A DNA stretch of 11,387 bases from Aquimarina sp. (GTDB lineage: Bacteria; Bacteroidota; Bacteroidia; Flavobacteriales; Flavobacteriaceae), in contig WTKB01000191.1 in assembly GCA_011524575.1 (NCBI GenBank), forward strand, positions 1-11,387, given 5' to 3'. Positions 19 to 11,387 of the stretch are shown in pieces. The position numbers and the translations under genes were made by a program. The stretch's first letter is position 1; each line of letters begins with the position of its first letter. The notes beneath the pieces are model-generated. The model was given only the letters and a program-made list of their open reading frames with translations. It had not been told where the DNA came from and made no database searches.

Positions 19-54
19 GAATTACAGGAAGTAGTGCCTTTAAACAAGCTCTAA
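19..54 (+). repeat. Right-end fragment (copy A) of the GAGC-ended miniature element
   Basis: Positions 19-36 repeat the core of the complete copies at 6207-6254 and 8035-8081 (read on their opposite strand), and 37-51 match their 15-bp terminal repeat, ending GCTC followed by TAA (52-54). The matching left inverted repeat is missing; the sequence before position 19 is unrelated to it. The core matches the complete copies base for base, so this fragment belongs to the same subfamily. It is either a one-ended remnant or the right end of a larger element whose left end lies outside the window. Confidence 0.75.
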
Positions 55-128
55 GAGCACTACTTTATAACATTCAACAATAGTAAACTTTTGAATTACA
101 GTTTGTATTGCATTTAAACATGCTCTAA
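55..128 (+). repeat. Diverged fragment (copy B) of the same repeat family
   Basis: Positions 93-125 align with the 33 bases of copy A at 19-51, with six differences, and again end GCTC followed by TAA. The 8 bases before it (CTTTTGAA region, 89-96) are shared with the copy at the right end of the window. GAGC at 55-58 directly follows copy A's TAA, so 55-125 could be a 71-bp element bounded by GAGC/GCTC and flanked by TAA on both sides. Beyond the first five bases its two ends are not clearly inverted repeats, so that reading is tentative. Confidence 0.6.
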
Positions 129-5191: not shown

Positions 5192-6154
5192 ATGAAAAAG
5201 ATGCTTTCCTTAGTCATAGGACTTTGTACTAGTGTACTCACTATGGCAAATTCAACCACAACAGTAACACTTAATCATCATCATCATAAAACAGTTCAAA
5301 ATACGCCCATAACTTTTATAGAAGCAGGTATTGAGTTTGCTATATTTAATGATGGACAATTTGATTTTAATGTACTCGATCCAATTTATGGTGCTCATAT
5401 AAACACCCGATATATCGATTTTAGTTTTAACACAGGACATGACTATGACACCTATGTACAATATGACCGTTATGGAGCAGTGATACAAATTGAAAACACA
5501 CCTATAAACTACGATTATTACGGAAGAGTAAGACGCATTGGTAATATTTACCTCGATTATAATAATCGTTTTGGACTGGTTAGCCGTGTTGGAAACCTAT
5601 TCTTAGATTATAATAGAACAGGAGTTCTTATTAGTCATCGTGGATTTATTAATCGTTTTAATCGAGACCGAATAGTAAAACGTAGATGTAATGCATACAG
5701 AGCTCCAAGAGCAAATTGTCGTATTGTTGCACAAACACCATACCGTAGAGATTTCACACCAAGACGTTGCAACTATGACAGCTACCGTAGAAACTACGTA
5801 AACAGAACTAGAAATCGTAATGGCTACTACAACAAGCAACGCGGGTCAAGACATGACTTTAACTCAAGACCTAATTACAGAATCGCTCCAAGGGTAACCA
5901 ATGCACCTAATAGAAATTTAAGAAGTATGAAAAACCATACGGAAATTCGTGATCGTAAAGTTGGTAGTACGGTAAGGACAACTACTAAAACGGTAAGAAA
6001 TAACCCTAGAAATTCAGGTAAAAGCACTACTCGAGTGACTCAAAAAACAGTAATTAAAAAAACACCTAAAGTAACCCCAAGAACATCCCCGAGAACAACT
6101 CATCGAGATGCTGTTGTAGTTACAAATACCCAACGAACTTTTAGAACTCGATAA
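5192..6154 (+). CDS. Secreted basic protein with 16-17-residue repeats, unknown function
   Basis: I cannot name the family; proteins of this look occur as hypotheticals in flavobacteria. The N-terminus is a Sec signal peptide (KK at 2-3, hydrophobic core 5-18, likely cleavage after Ala19). A four-His run (29-32) follows early in the mature part. Residues 91-157 contain four consecutive degenerate repeats of 16-17 residues, best seen as xxYGRVRRIGNIYLDY (about 108-123) and NRFGLVSRVGNLFLDY (125-140), probably short beta units. From about 158 the chain is strongly basic (Arg/Lys, Asn, Thr, almost no acidic residues) and has three Cys (166, 176, 193). There is no T9SS sorting domain, so it is probably periplasmic or exported by another route. 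The basic tail could bind DNA, polyanionic polysaccharide or the envelope (inference). Its upstream region has a sigma54-like element, and a strong hairpin follows its stop codon. Confidence 0.85.
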   Translation: MKKMLSLVIGLCTSVLTMANSTTTVTLNHHHHKTVQNTPITFIEAGIEFAIFNDGQFDFNVLDPIYGAHINTRYIDFSFNTGHDYDTYVQYDRYGAVIQIENTPINYDYYGRVRRIGNIYLDYNNRFGLVSRVGNLFLDYNRTGVLISHRGFINRFNRDRIVKRRCNAYRAPRANCRIVAQTPYRRDFTPRRCNYDSYRRNYVNRTRNRNGYYNKQRGSRHDFNSRPNYRIAPRVTNAPNRNLRSMKNHTEIRDRKVGSTVRTTTKTVRNNPRNSGKSTTRVTQKTVIKKTPKVTPRTSPRTTHRDAVVVTNTQRTFRTR

Positions 6155-6162
6155 TTATACCA

Positions 6163-6198
6163 ATTAGGGCTATACTATTTTAATAGTATAGCCCTAAT
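6163..6198. terminator. Strong hairpin terminator after the secreted-protein gene
   Basis: ATTAGGGCTATACTATT (6163-6179) and its exact 17-base complement (6182-6198) enclose TT, leaving a stem of about 15 bp after loop opening. It begins 9 bp after the stop codon. The T-run after the stem is short and interrupted, so it may act as a terminator or as a 3'-end stabilising structure. Confidence 0.75.
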
Positions 6199-6203
6199 CT
6201 AAT

Positions 6204-6257
6204 TAAGAGCTTGTTTAAAGGCACTACTTCCTGTAATTCCCTTTAAACAAGCTCTAA
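6204..6257. mobile_element. Complete 48-bp miniature inverted-repeat element (copy D) with TAA flanks
   Basis: The terminal inverted repeats are GAGCTTGTTTAAAGG (6207-6221) and its perfect complement (6240-6254), around an 18-base core (6222-6239). The element is flanked by TAA on both sides (6204-6206 and 6255-6257), a 3-bp TNA direct repeat typical of target duplication by IS1031-group (IS5 family) transposases. It carries no coding capacity. It sits between convergent genes and the hairpin may add to termination. Mobility is inferred from the repeats, flanks and multiple copies. Confidence 0.75.
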
Positions 6258-6261
6258 AACT

Positions 6262-6283
6262 ATTGATAGGATAATCTATCAAT
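6262..6283. terminator. Hairpin downstream of trxB
   Basis: ATTGATAG (6262-6269) and CTATCAAT (6276-6283) form an 8-bp stem with a 6-base loop, 14 bp beyond the trxB stop codon. There is no clear U-tract on the trxB strand, so it is a weak terminator candidate. Confidence 0.5.
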
Positions 6284-6297
6284 GATAACACTGAGTA

Positions 6298-7248
6298 TTA
6301 ACCTTCTAATTCTGCTAAATAACGCTCGGCATCCATTGCTGCCATACAACCCGAACCTGCTGCTGTAATAGCTTGACGGTAATTTTTGTCCTGAACATCT
6401 CCAGAGGCAAATACACCTGGAATATTTGTAAAGGTAGTACCTGGTTTTGTTAAGATATACCCTGTTTCATCTAGTTCAATCTGATCTTTGAAAATGTCTG
6501 TATTAGGTTTGTGTCCAATAGCTATAAAAAGCCCTGTGATCGAAATATCATGAGTTTCTTTAGTTTGATTATTAATAATCTTCAAACCTTCTACTACTTG
6601 ATCCCCAAGAACCTCTTCTACCTCCGAATTGTAAAGTACCGTTAAATTCTCGGTTTTTTCTACACGATGTTGCATGGCTTTTGAGGCACGCATATAATCT
6701 TTACGTACAAGCATCGTTACACTTTTACAAATATTTGCTAAATATGTAGCCTCCTCTGCTGCAGTATCTCCTGCACCAACTACAGCTACATCTTGGTTTT
6801 TATAAAAAAACCCATCACAGACCGCACAAGCAGAAACTCCACCCCCTCTTAGTCGTTGTTCACTTTCTAAACCAAGATATTTTGCTGTTGCTCCCGTAGA
6901 AATAATTACGGTTTCTGCTTCAATTTGCTTGGAGTCATCTACTGTAATTTGATGAATACCTCCTTTTTCTTTTGCAAAATCTACGGCAGTCACCCTACCT
7001 ATACGTACTTCTGTACCAAAACGCTCGGCTTGTTTTTGTAAGTCGATCATCATTGTAGGACCATCAATACCATTAGGATACCCTGGAAAATTATCTACCT
7101 CTGTAGTAGTGGTAAGCTGACCCCCAGGTTCCATTCCTGTATAAACAACAGGGTTTAGATCTGCTCTAGAAGCATAAATTGCAGCAGTATAACCTGCTGG
7201 CCCCGAACCTATAATCAAACATTTGATGCGCTCTTTATTTTCTGACAT
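6298..7248 (-). CDS. trxB: Thioredoxin-disulfide reductase
   Basis: TrxB transfers electrons from NADPH through FAD and a redox-active disulfide to thioredoxin in the cytoplasm. The 316-residue protein has the FAD dinucleotide motif GSGPAGYTAA (14-23), the active-site pair CAVC (Cys141 and Cys144) followed by DG, and a second dinucleotide motif GAGDTAAEEA (158-167). VRKDYMRAS (181-189) lies in the place of the NADPH 2'-phosphate-binding segment, and the C-terminal FAD motif is FASGDVQD (280-287). In E. coli the 2'-phosphate segment begins HRRD; here the first two residues are Val-Arg, so NADPH preference is likely but not proven. The frame extends to 7356, overlapping the divergent ung gene, but ATG 7248 gives the normal family length and lies downstream of a TAnnTTTG box, so I use it. 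Confidence 0.96.
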   Translation of the reverse strand: MSENKERIKCLIIGSGPAGYTAAIYASRADLNPVVYTGMEPGGQLTTTTEVDNFPGYPNGIDGPTMMIDLQKQAERFGTEVRIGRVTAVDFAKEKGGIHQITVDDSKQIEAETVIISTGATAKYLGLESEQRLRGGGVSACAVCDGFFYKNQDVAVVGAGDTAAEEATYLANICKSVTMLVRKDYMRASKAMQHRVEKTENLTVLYNSEVEEVLGDQVVEGLKIINNQTKETHDISITGLFIAIGHKPNTDIFKDQIELDETGYILTKPGTTFTNIPGVFASGDVQDKNYRQAITAAGSGCMAAMDAERYLAELEG

Positions 7249-7274
7249 AATTCTTTGGATTTGTAATTTAAAAT

Positions 7275-7288
7275 AAACACGAGTGTTT
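7275..7288. promoter_or_regulatory. 14-bp palindrome in the trxB leader
   Basis: AAACAC (7275-7280) and GTGTTT (7283-7288) are perfect inverted arms around two bases. The dyad lies just downstream of the predicted trxB transcription start and 27 bp before its ATG. It could be an operator, but no bound factor is identifiable. Confidence 0.3.
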
Positions 7289-7301
7289 TGATTTATAATT
7301 A

Positions 7302-7331
7302 CAAATTTACTGCTTATTATTGTGAGATAAA
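7302..7331 (-). promoter_or_regulatory. Putative trxB promoter
   Basis: On the minus strand TAAATTTG (7309-7302) matches the TAnnTTTG -7 consensus. A T-run (7331-7329) stands 19 bp upstream where the -33 TTG should be. The predicted start near 7296 supports ATG 7248 and rules out the longer 7356 reading from this promoter. Confidence 0.5.
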
Positions 7332-7346
7332 AAAGCACTTTAACCC

Positions 7347-8024
7347 ATGAACACACAACTTCCTTCTTCTTGGAAATCTTTACTTAATGAAGAACTAAAA
7401 GCTACTTACTTTGAAAAACTTAGTCAGTTTGTTGAAGATAATTACCAACAAAATACTTGTTTTCCTCCAAAAGAACTCCTCTTTGAAGCTTTTAAATTAT
7501 GTCCGTTAGAAGATGTAAAAGTAATACTTCTTGGTCAAGACCCTTACCACAAAAAAGGACTAGCAAACGGACTTAGCTTTTCCGTAAATCGTGAAGTGGC
7601 TATACCAGCATCACTAAGAAATATTTACAAAGAGCTCAATACCGATATTGGCTTTAAAAATGGTATTCCATTACATGGAGATTTATCGTATTGGGCAAAA
7701 CAAGGAGTATTACTTTTAAATACATGCCTTACTGTAGAAATGAAAAAAGCAGGTTCTCATAAAAAACAAGGTTGGGAAACTTTTACCGATGCTGTAATTG
7801 AAAAACTTTCACAACAAAAAAAAGGACTTGTATTTCTATTATGGGGAAATTTCGCCAAAGAAAAAAAACATCTTATTGATGATTCGAAACACTGTATATT
7901 AATGAGTGGTCATCCTTCCTTTGCAGCAGTACACAAAAAATGGTTTGGTAATAAACATTTTAGTAGTTGTAATACCTTTTTAAAAGATCAAAATAAAACC
8001 CCTATAGATTGGACAGGACTATAA
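7347..8024 (+). CDS. ung: Uracil-DNA glycosylase, family 1
   Basis: Ung removes uracil from DNA as the first step of base-excision repair. The 225 residues match the family length. The water-activating motif GQDPYH is at 63-68 (catalytic Asp65), followed by GLSFSV. LLLNTCLTV (122-130), the SHKKQGWETFTD segment (137-148) and WGNFA (166-170) are also family hallmarks. The second catalytic motif reads GHPSFAAVHKKWFGNKHF (188-205): the catalytic His189 is kept, but the usual HPSPLSA is HPSFAAV, with Ala where E. coli has the DNA-intercalating Leu191. The gene begins 98 bp from the divergent trxB start. It ends 7 bp before the left flank of a miniature element. I am sure of the family; activity strength is open. 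Confidence 0.96.
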   Translation: MNTQLPSSWKSLLNEELKATYFEKLSQFVEDNYQQNTCFPPKELLFEAFKLCPLEDVKVILLGQDPYHKKGLANGLSFSVNREVAIPASLRNIYKELNTDIGFKNGIPLHGDLSYWAKQGVLLLNTCLTVEMKKAGSHKKQGWETFTDAVIEKLSQQKKGLVFLLWGNFAKEKKHLIDDSKHCILMSGHPSFAAVHKKWFGNKHFSSCNTFLKDQNKTPIDWTGL

Positions 8025-8031
8025 TACCTGC

Positions 8032-8084
8032 TTAGAGCTTGTTTAAAGGCACTACTTCCTGTAATCCCTTTAAACAAGCTCTTA
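8032..8084. mobile_element. Complete 47-bp miniature inverted-repeat element (copy E) with TTA flanks
   Basis: The same 15-bp inverted ends as copy D, GAGCTTGTTTAAAGG (8035-8049) and its perfect complement (8067-8081), enclose a 17-base core that differs from copy D's only by one missing T. It is flanked by TTA on both sides (8032-8034 and 8082-8084), again a TNA direct repeat but a different one from copy D, which argues for an independent insertion rather than duplication of the region. It has no coding capacity and lies between convergent genes. Confidence 0.75.
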
Positions 8085-8146: not shown

Positions 8147-10927
8147 TTACTTAGCAATAAGTATTTTTTGGACTTCTACTATCGAATCATTTGACAGTTC
8201 TAAAAAATAAATACCATTTGACAAATCAAGTAGATCGATGATTTGATTATTAGAGGTTATATTAACTTGTTTAACGATAAGCCCTGAAATAGAGTAAAAG
8301 GAAGCAGTTTCATAAATAACTGAATCATTACTAATCGTAATATTTTCAGTAATTGGATTCGGATATACCAAAAGACCTTCTTGACTTGTTGGAATCTCAA
8401 CATCATCTATATTTTCTTCATTAAAGATTTCTGACTCAGACTCGGTCTCACTCTCGGTCATAGTCTCTTCAGTTGTTTCTGTTGTTGTCTCTTCCTCTGA
8501 TTCTGACTCAGACTCGCTTTCAGTCATGGTCTCTTCGGTTGTTTCTGTTGTTGTCTCTTCCTCTGATTCTGACTCAGACTCGCTCTCAGTCATAGTCTCT
8601 TCAGTTGTTGTTTCATTTTCCTCTTGTCCATCTGTTATGTTAACAAGTTCACCATAAAACTCTATTTCTCCAATAGCACTCCAAACACTACTAAAAGAAA
8701 CTCCTGAATTCGAAGTCCTACCAAATCCAACTACTTTGATATATCTTGCATCAGTAGATAATAAATACTCATTAAAATTTGTGGTTCCTGTTTCTGTGAA
8801 AATATAATCTGATGACGAAACAGGTAATACCTTTTCAAAATCGGTATCAGAAGTACCTTCTTGAGAAACAAATACCTGAAAAACGAAAGAATCAGATTTA
8901 TTTGTGGTTGAAAACCGAATTAAATCTAAGTGATGAATACTTCCCAAATCGTATATAATAAACTCTCCATCACCTTCAAGATCATCTGCTGCCCATACGG
9001 TACTTGGGTCTTTATCCAGGGTATTTGTTGCATAATTAAATTTGTTTACATCATTTACCTCTTCTTTAGAATACTGAAAAACACGAGTATTATCATTAGT
9101 AGCTCCCATATTAATTAAGGAATATCTATCTGTAATTTCTGGTGGTGCTTGAATAATATTTAAAACACTTACTAAATCTCCATTTTGTTGTGTAAAAGTC
9201 AACAAGCCAGATCTTGAAGTAGTATCGGTATTTTCTGTAACTGAAATTGTTAGAGTAGCATTACCAGAACCCGATGTAGTAGCTAAGTTTATCCAATTAT
9301 TGTCCGAGCTCACAGACCAATCAATATTTGAATTTACAGTAGTTGTCACAGATTGCATCTCATAAGTAAGTGCTGAAATAGAACTAACGGTTAACTTATC
9401 TATTGGCTCGATAATAATAACATTATCACAACTGGAACCGCTGATATAATTAGCTTCAAAATCCAAAAAACAGGCACCTACTCCATTCCCTACTTTATCA
9501 TCGGTAATTGGGGCATTGGAAAGTGAAGCTCCATAACCTAATTTATTGTGGGTATATATCTCTCCATTAGAAGTCACTGAAATAGTTTCAGTATTAAAAC
9601 CAAGAACTGTTTCTCCTAAACCTGACGCTCCATCATAAATATTATCTACAAAAGTAAGCCCTGTTCCAATATCGCTGTAATCACCACTAATTACATTTGT
9701 TATATTTTCATGACCTGATTCAAAATAAATAATATTTTTAGATACCGTTCCAAAAACATTTTTTGCACCATCTCTACTTCCATTAAAATAAATAGGAGAA
9801 TCTGTATTTACAAATGTATTATTAGAAAAAGTAATATCCTTAACATCTTGATAATCATTTGATACACTTGTAGCATTACAATCTTGTACGGAAGAGGTAT
9901 TACCACCCACAAAAGTAAGCCCATTATTCCATGCAGAAAACTGAGTAATTGCCTTACAATCTTGAATATAGTTGTTGGTAATCGTGTGTTTACTATCTGC
10001 AATACGAATACCACCTGTACCCTCTATGTTTTCTCCTAAAAAATAATTTCCATCTACAGTAGCATTTGCTCCGTGCCGCATCACTAGAGAACCTCTACAC
10101 CTTCTGAAAGTATTGTTATAATACGAATTATTACTACTTTTATTGGTAATAATTTCATTTTCACCATCGGCTTGCACAAAATAATTCCCACTTATAATAG
10201 CTGCAGAATTTACATTTTGATATTCACTTGTACCAATTCTAATGGTTTCTGCATCGCCTGAATTAGACAAAGAAGCATTCATTTTTTCATAATTATAAAA
10301 ATAATTATTTGAGATAATATGTCCCACTTCTTCACAGCGTGTATTGGCAGCTCCTTCATCTGGAGAAGCGTTATATTCATATTCTGCTAAAACTAAAGCC
10401 CCCGCAGTATTTTTGTTCATAAAAGTACAATTTAAAACACTGTTATGATTACCATATAACACAATCCACCTATGTTTGATAATAGCACCAGCAGCGGCAG
10501 CAGCGGCAGCATCCGCTGATTCGGCAGTTAATCCATTAATGGCACAGTTTTGAATGGTACAATTTGTTGCATAATTACTTCCATTTCTAAACTGAATGAA
10601 ATTACTTGCTCCATATCCTCCATTCCAATAAAAACCATCTACAATTAAATAAGACCCAGAAATATCCATTTGAAGACCTCCAGTAAACTGAACACCACCT
10701 GGGGTTTCTGAAGTAAAAGTAATAGGAGCATCAATAGTACCTGTTCCTGAAAAATGAATTCTTTCATCTGAAGAATACGTACCATTTTTTAAAATAACGG
10801 TATCTCCAGCAGATAAATTTTCTATCGTCTCAATTTGACTAGGATCAGTAATATTATACGTGGTCTGTGATTGCACCAAAGACACCAACATAAAAAACGT
10901 AACGAAAATATAGTTTTTTACAGCCAT
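8147..10927 (-). CDS. Secreted PL6-family polysaccharide lyase (alginate or chondroitinase-B type) with T9SS domain
   Basis: This 926-residue enzyme is predicted to cleave uronate-containing polysaccharide by beta-elimination outside the cell. Domains in order: signal peptide (1-20, cleavage before Gln21); a right-handed beta-helix PL6 catalytic domain (about 22-440); a BACON domain (about 511-593, with DWSVSSDNNWI and a TFTQ strand); an F5/8-type C discoidin-like domain (about 600-762), probably glycan-binding; an acidic Ser/Glu/Thr linker of 22-residue repeats (772-833); and a C-terminal T9SS sorting domain (852-926, YPNP start, SGLIV, LSNGIYFLEL). The catalytic pair is Lys263 (TNKSS) and Arg284 (MRHG), spaced exactly as Lys250 and Arg271 of Pedobacter chondroitinase B. 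Glu256 and Glu258 match that enzyme's calcium ligands. An unusual poly-Ala run (140-146) interrupts the helix. Alginate is the likelier substrate in a marine setting, but dermatan sulfate cannot be excluded. No SusC/D genes adjoin it. Confidence 0.93.
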   Translation of the reverse strand: MAVKNYIFVTFFMLVSLVQSQTTYNITDPSQIETIENLSAGDTVILKNGTYSSDERIHFSGTGTIDAPITFTSETPGGVQFTGGLQMDISGSYLIVDGFYWNGGYGASNFIQFRNGSNYATNCTIQNCAINGLTAESADAAAAAAAGAIIKHRWIVLYGNHNSVLNCTFMNKNTAGALVLAEYEYNASPDEGAANTRCEEVGHIISNNYFYNYEKMNASLSNSGDAETIRIGTSEYQNVNSAAIISGNYFVQADGENEIITNKSSNNSYYNNTFRRCRGSLVMRHGANATVDGNYFLGENIEGTGGIRIADSKHTITNNYIQDCKAITQFSAWNNGLTFVGGNTSSVQDCNATSVSNDYQDVKDITFSNNTFVNTDSPIYFNGSRDGAKNVFGTVSKNIIYFESGHENITNVISGDYSDIGTGLTFVDNIYDGASGLGETVLGFNTETISVTSNGEIYTHNKLGYGASLSNAPITDDKVGNGVGACFLDFEANYISGSSCDNVIIIEPIDKLTVSSISALTYEMQSVTTTVNSNIDWSVSSDNNWINLATTSGSGNATLTISVTENTDTTSRSGLLTFTQQNGDLVSVLNIIQAPPEITDRYSLINMGATNDNTRVFQYSKEEVNDVNKFNYATNTLDKDPSTVWAADDLEGDGEFIIYDLGSIHHLDLIRFSTTNKSDSFVFQVFVSQEGTSDTDFEKVLPVSSSDYIFTETGTTNFNEYLLSTDARYIKVVGFGRTSNSGVSFSSVWSAIGEIEFYGELVNITDGQEENETTTEETMTESESESESEEETTTETTEETMTESESESESEEETTTETTEETMTESETESESEIFNEENIDDVEIPTSQEGLLVYPNPITENITISNDSVIYETASFYSISGLIVKQVNITSNNQIIDLLDLSNGIYFLELSNDSIVEVQKILIAK
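8429..8614. repeat. 66-bp tandem repeat encoding the acidic linker of the lyase
   Basis: A 66-bp unit recurs about 2.8 times in frame (for example the CAGTCAT landmark at 8521 and 8587, with CGGTCAT at 8455), giving three 19-22-residue blocks of the form ETTTETTEETMTESESESES plus EE. The units differ by a few substitutions, and the first protein block lacks three residues. It links the F5/8-type domain to the sorting domain and is expected to be flexible and variable in copy number. Confidence 0.9.
10490..10510 (-). repeat. GC-rich alanine-codon microsatellite in the PL6 domain
   Basis: Seven consecutive Ala codons (residues 140-146), arranged as GCT GCC GCT twice plus GCT, stand out as GC-rich in an AT-rich gene. 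They lie in a loop just before the KHRWIVLYG strand. The 9-bp periodicity points to slippage expansion. Confidence 0.8.
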
Positions 10928-11354: not shown

Positions 11355-11387
11355 AAAACTTTTGAATTACAATTTGTATTCCCTTTA
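11355..11387 (+). repeat. Fragment (copy C) of the dispersed element, cut by the window end
   Basis: From AAAACTTTTGAATTACA (11355-11371) onward the sequence matches the fragment at 85-119, including TTTGTATT in the core, and it ends in CCCTTTA, the start of the terminal repeat. The rest of the terminal repeat would lie beyond the window. It directly abuts the truncated HAD gene, and its first bases overlap the last in-frame codons of that gene. Confidence 0.7.

Follow-up and report, generated by a model that had tools for sequence, protein, structure and literature searches.

What are the two hairpin sequences, 48 and 47 bp long, that each lie between convergent genes in this stretch of Aquimarina DNA: transcription terminators, or mobile elements that happened to land there? 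The window, by which we mean the whole 11,387-nucleotide stretch analysed, is contig C81 of a metagenome-assembled genome (MAG; 2.09 Mb in 373 contigs, 89.31% complete) referred to below as G000, its congeners being numbered likewise. An initial annotation had described two independently inserted elements with duplicated TNA targets. Both copies are present as it placed them, with perfect inverted 15-bp ends (GAGCTTGTTTAAAGG / CCTTTAAACAAGCTC) and their own TAA/TAA and TTA/TTA flanks (Table 1). We conclude that the hairpins are very probably ultra-short MITEs that shrank from a 154/155-bp element with IS5-type ends, were inserted at TNA sites and are likely mobile themselves. The window holds three partial copies in addition to the two complete ones, and both termini of the contig fall inside elements of the same family. 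A repeat of another kind is also present: three 66-bp tandem repeats (8430-8627) encode acidic and threonine-rich repeats of a long protein (8147-10927).

Table 1. Elements of the MITE family and their flanking trinucleotides in the window.
Feature	Position	Strand	Basis
Left target duplication TAA, copy 1	6204..6206	.	Read from sequence
Copy 1, 48-bp short element, left-arm core, perfect 15-bp ends	6207..6254	+	
Right target duplication TAA, copy 1	6255..6257	.	
Left target duplication TTA, copy 2	8032..8034	.	
Copy 2, 47-bp short element, left-arm core, perfect 15-bp ends	8035..8081	+	
Right target duplication TTA, copy 2	8082..8084	.	
Left arm of long element, cut off by contig start	1..51	-	
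TAA common to partial element 1-51 and derivative 55-125	52..54	.	
Damaged derivative of 71 bp; retains right arm and right end, left end mostly gone	55..125	+	
TAA 3' of the 71-bp derivative	126..128	.	
Part of right arm at contig end; outermost bases missing, no left arm upstream	11356..11387	+	

The ends of these elements recur throughout the MAG: GAGCNTGTTTAAANG occurs 98 times in forward and 99 times in reverse orientation in the 2.09-Mb assembly, and its reversed control 0 and 0 times. Searched as inverted pairs, in the way that the initial annotation had proposed, the short gapped pattern gave 23 sites in G000, a single one in G024 and none in the remaining 54 of 56 genomes (control 0). 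With looser ends and 66 genomes of the genus, the counts were 28 in G000, one each in G024, G010 and G066 and zero in the other 62, the reversed control again being 0; the single sites of G010 and G066 have different cores. A long pattern, accepted between 141 and 171 bp and with a reversed control of 0, was found at 62 sites in G000, 74 in G010 and 8 in G024, at one site each in G060, G020, G027, G014 and G085, and at none in the remaining 58 of the 66 genomes; the G085 match appears unrelated and lacks a duplication. The family at work is a MITE present in many copies across this MAG: it is short, has no coding capacity, bears terminal inverted repeats, is dispersed in many copies and is flanked by target site duplications. 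At 2.09 Mb (89% complete), G000 falls well below the 3-7 Mb of most congeners, and for this reason its MITE load may accompany genome reduction. Carriage by phages is without support from viral contigs, in which the short pattern matched 0 stretches.

Flanking trinucleotides bear directly on how the copies arrived. Within the extracted loci of G000, which are the scope of these counts, identical 3-bp flanks surround 26 of 33 short copies and 32 of 45 long copies, against means of 13.7 and 18.4 when right flanks were permuted among copies (0/20000 shuffles as high in either class). Three items, of 29 bp, 50 bp (at locus L202) and 69 bp, had been removed from the short class beforehand; the 69-bp item is still included in the counts of core variants and gene context. 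Every identical pair in G000 is a TNA (TAA, TTA, TGA or TCA). The independent insertions with TNA duplications proposed from the two window copies are supported. Flanks are not identical in 7 of the 33 short and 13 of the 45 long copies; the mismatch is then most often confined to the middle base, as expected from recombination between copies or from mutation. The same signature extends to congeners, with identical TNA flanks in 25 of the 26 copies examined among the 74 sites of G010, in five of seven examined in G024, and at the single long copies of G060, G020 and G027, though not of G014.

This signature also bears on a different class of mobile palindrome. REP/REPIN-like sequences mobilised by a Y1 (RAYT) transposase would likewise be short, intergenic hairpins of high copy number. 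Y1 elements, however, are not known to make a target duplication, and the 3-bp TNA duplications, together with ends common to DDE-type IS5 elements, contradict such an origin and leave it a negligible probability.

The long form offers a parent for the short one. It is typically 154 bp (153-157 bp in G000, 155 bp in most copies elsewhere) and forms a quasi-palindrome whose left arm resembles the reversed right arm over its whole length. The short form lacks most of this parent's interior: short copies combine 29-33 bp from one end with 17-22 bp from the other, both ends being intact. With a typed composite of the parent sequence as the reference, the deletion junctions fall into three kinds, with 2-4 bp of overlap. 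Most short copies carry a left-arm core and several a right-arm core. Thirty of the 33 are 47 or 48 bp long, which bears out the very small size first noted for the window copies, the others measuring 51, 62 and 62 bp; the common layout is two 15-bp ends with 17-18 bp in between. Singletons or pairs of other lengths (75, 82 and 100 bp) have TNA flanks as well. One copy seems to have inserted into another at L088 (contig C100 of G000, 665-849), where an 82-bp derivative bounded by TAA on each side comes immediately after a truncated long element; L208 contains the second derivative of 82 bp.

Empty sites were sought in relatives, in line with the initial annotation. For a 155-bp relative an exact one was found. 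The 155-bp copies of G020 and G027 are 98.8% identical over 165 bp and lie in otherwise dissimilar loci. When the flanks of the G020 copy were joined, five species matched almost the full 800 bases at 89-92% identity: G001, a sister species, has an uninterrupted junction containing one TTA, and in G030, G027, G088 and G002 the element is absent from the site, where small indels occur. No exact empty site was obtained for the short copies, at which relatives align only in coding DNA or in overly diverged spacers. A trxB/ung query matched 65 of 66 genomes, and none of the matches listed outside G000 covers the window copies. The atpA-atpG spacers of 11 relatives contain no element by eye and are too diverged to reveal an exact site, 18 of the 29 relative loci having been dropped as unparsed by a simple gene finder; around the 52-bp copy of G024, alignments of relatives stop about 60 bp before the element.

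Which transposase could have moved such elements? A candidate type was provided by Pontibacter sp. E15-1, where an 878-bp IS has GAGCATGTTTAAATTT ends and TAA flanks, and where the same locus contains a 46-bp hairpin with the same ends and non-identical flanks (TTA/TTG). The protein of this IS scores above the cut-offs of DUF4096 (PF13340), DDE_Tnp_1 (PF01609) and the NCBIfam model NF033580 ('IS5 family transposase'). Homologues with 67-69% identity occur within the genus, as nine copies in G003 and, in G010, as one intact copy besides other matches that are partial or broken; G015 has a weak match, and the remaining 63 of 66 genomes, including the 89%-complete G000, have no transposase of the Pontibacter type. 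The G003 and G010 elements, whose transposase type is assigned through this Pontibacter relative, are 884 bp long and have a single transposase ORF and GAG(C/T)ATGTTTAAA ends. Identical TNA flanks surround the intact G010 copy and all nine G003 copies, two of which agree with each other in the few bases flanking them on either side and may not be independent. The link that the initial annotation had drawn to IS5-family ends with TNA duplications is supported by these elements; an IS with the same ends, for which it had proposed to look, exists in these two congeners, and none was found in the MAG itself.

The distribution of MITE and IS is uneven. An intact IS of this end type coexists with numerous long MITEs in G010 alone; in G003 the IS occurs with no MITE, and in G024 the reverse holds. 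MITE and IS have only about the terminal 13-15 bp in common, no similarity having been noticed beyond the ends. These points count against the overall interpretation, as do the copies that lack identical flanks and the missing transposase of G000. The latter may be truly absent, or it may have dropped out of the short-read bin as a collapsed repeat. The only DDE transposase gene that a PF01609 search detected in this MAG has an internal stop and is classified at the Pfam level; it was rejected as the partner, since no pair of MITE ends with equal flanks encloses it. We infer mobilisation in trans in G000 by a transposase of the IS5 type. The most probable course would begin with a 154/155-bp quasi-palindromic MITE with IS5-family (IS1031-type) ends spreading through several Aquimarina species; in G000, internal deletions between short direct matches would have reduced it to 47-48 bp with both ends retained; and a transposase would pair the two ends and insert the element at a TNA, duplicating it.

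With the family, its TNA duplications, the deletion relationship, the empty site of the 155-bp relative and the congener IS with matching ends established, the issue becomes whether the 47-48 bp form transposes itself or arises in place each time. Were only the 154-bp element mobile, each short copy would stem from loss of the interior in situ through microhomology slippage within the palindrome and would have inherited its duplication from the larger insertion. Several features accord with this: the three kinds of junction with their 2-4 bp overlaps, the occurrence of both left-arm and right-arm cores, the further lengths (51, 62, 75, 82 and 100 bp) indicating that deletions recur, and the likeness of short and long copies in their duplications and flanks. 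The concentration of 30 of the 33 short copies in a single 47-48 bp class speaks against it, even if repeated microhomology loss could also produce few length classes, and even though the search for an exact empty site of a short copy gave none. So does a TTCGTG core found in three short copies at three loci (duplications TAA, TTA and TAA) and absent from all 45 long copies, which suggests that the short form itself has moved. A third counter-argument comes from a Bacteroides MAG, where four near-identical 49-50 bp hairpins are flanked by TTA, TAA, TGA and TTA duplications. On balance we consider deletion in place unlikely as the general origin of the short copies, and transposition of the 47-48 bp form itself probable; the hairpins may be among the shortest DNA elements that are still mobile.

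Similar hairpins are found well beyond the genus. In GTDB contigs, a collection that may omit records close to the genome of the window, the short pattern (hairpins of 40-59 bp with the same ends) occurs in 68 stretches, one of them from G024; counted by record prefix these represent 52 genomes, with 4 not titled Bacteroidota. Identical 3-bp flanks surround 34 of the 68, TNA in 33 cases, against 19.1 expected by shuffling (0/20000 as high). The four Bacteroides hairpins described above, from uncultured Bacteroides sp. SI.B2 bin 82 (L090, L101, L107 and L149), form another apparent family of tiny MITEs. Records titled uncultured Ruminococcus sp. RUG10904 (L110, L129, L130, L135 and L138) contain five hairpins of 43 bp whose cores are related and whose ends are GAGCCTGTTTAAA; two of the five have identical TTA flanks. 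A broader proposal, that the 47-48 bp form is a replicating transposon near the minimal DDE substrate and that IS5/IS1031-type MITEs of Bacteroidota repeatedly shrink to about this length, seems to us an evenly balanced bet.

The position of both window copies between convergent genes had led the initial annotation to suggest a portable terminator. In favour of terminators selected in this position, whether portable or fixed, the copies are predicted to fold into stable RNA hairpins on either strand: for copy 1 the energies are -24.6 and -27 kcal/mol on its two strands, and for copy 2 -24.8 kcal/mol on the plus strand. Neither copy, however, is followed by a T-tract on either strand, and a terminator scan flagged neither, which is weak evidence given that it allowed loops of 3-8 bases only. 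Each of the two intergenic spaces contains another hairpin besides (-22.7 and -9.5 kcal/mol, likewise unflagged). The stronger of these (6163-6200, -22.7 kcal/mol) stops four bases short of the left TAA of copy 1, and may be the true end signal of the gene at 5192-6154, with no T-tract after it.

Gene context across the MAG agrees poorly with a terminator role. Using mechanical ORFs and 34 short items (one being the 69-bp artefact), both neighbours could be assigned for 23 copies: 16 lie between co-directional genes, including a copy between genes read from their translations as atpA and atpG, only 6 between convergent and 1 between divergent ones. Eight further items have no neighbour within their locus and three overlap an ORF. 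The trxB-region loci of 29 relatives, too, speak against such a role: they show no element near the gene, save one isolated half-site. The context is more in keeping with insertions tolerated at a distance from promoters than with terminators under selection, and the suggested terminator role, which we hold to be very unlikely, finds no support.

The long element retains its length and arm symmetry across species despite sequence divergence, a pattern suggestive of selection or correction at the level of a hairpin form. We aligned 19 long copies from seven genomes and paired each position with its mirror. Mirror-paired cells amounted to 61.5%, against 55.6 after shuffling, and cells altered on both sides to 100 against 52.4; the covariation score was 0.181 against 0.094 (0/500 shuffles as high for all three), and slid versions reached at most 0.115. 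Two other measures gave no excess: 25 pairs were altered on both sides, against 23.7 shuffled (184/500 as high), and further pair types numbered 43 against 51.6 (499/500 as high). RNAalifold predicted 30 pairs in the long form, 10 of them with changes on both sides. Relatedness of copies, symmetric end recognition, arm-to-arm correction and a selected hairpin could each contribute to such covariation. Since it exceeds controls on some measures and not on others, and since symmetric end binding or arm-to-arm correction can yield it, no RNA function is claimed for the 155-bp form. An Rfam search of the window with E-values up to 1 returned only mir-753 (6200-6261, 28.5 bits), taken as a chance hairpin match, its score being far under the gathering threshold of 62. 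Elsewhere, a Flavo-1 RNA (RF01705, 51.2 bits, gathering 42) lies at L177 1700-1806 in G010, 45 bp beyond a 155-bp element.

If the 48-bp form does transpose, it sets an approximate lower size bound for a DNA transposon and provides a natural minimal substrate on which to study end pairing by an IS5-type transposase. Our interpretation would also suggest a transposon origin, as remnants, for some terminator-like intergenic hairpins of Bacteroidota, and a contribution of such repeats to breaks in short-read assemblies.

Among described systems, the closest is the IS1031 group of the IS5 family, which has GAG ends too and for which PMC12016507 gives a TNA target preference and a 3-bp duplication, and PMC2516522 a single ORF and three-base sites. 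The congener IS is of about 880 bp with one transposase ORF, whereas the window elements are gene-free and 47-48 bp long; in its ends, TNA duplication and transposase family it resembles the IS1031 group. Cyanobacteria have small dispersed repeats that are reportedly very small and mobile as well (Elhai et al. 2008, cited in PMC3116915); their ends are not known to be supplied by a named IS family, whereas the Aquimarina ends match IS5-type elements. In the titles and abstract openings of the matches listed, no IS5/IS1031-type MITE was mentioned for Aquimarina or other Flavobacteriaceae. Prokaryotic MITEs, as outlined in PMC10969869, show the same inverted repeats, target duplications, lack of genes and dispersed, mostly intergenic copies; the type II pattern, in which ends alone are common to MITE and IS, fits the present family. 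The usual MITE size is given there as 50-500 bp, and Coxiella QMITE1, with a lower end of 39 bp, is described as having variable, partly eroded copies (PMC10969869), whereas 30 of the 33 Aquimarina short copies form one class of 47-48 bp with intact ends. Cardinium MITECca01 is likewise a Bacteroidota MITE defined by IS-shared ends, but is about 240 bp long, belongs with the IS982 family and has its parental IS in the same genome (PMC9769881). The Aquimarina elements are of a known kind, with a size that lies at or under the customary minimum for MITEs; similar hairpins occur across the Bacteroidota.
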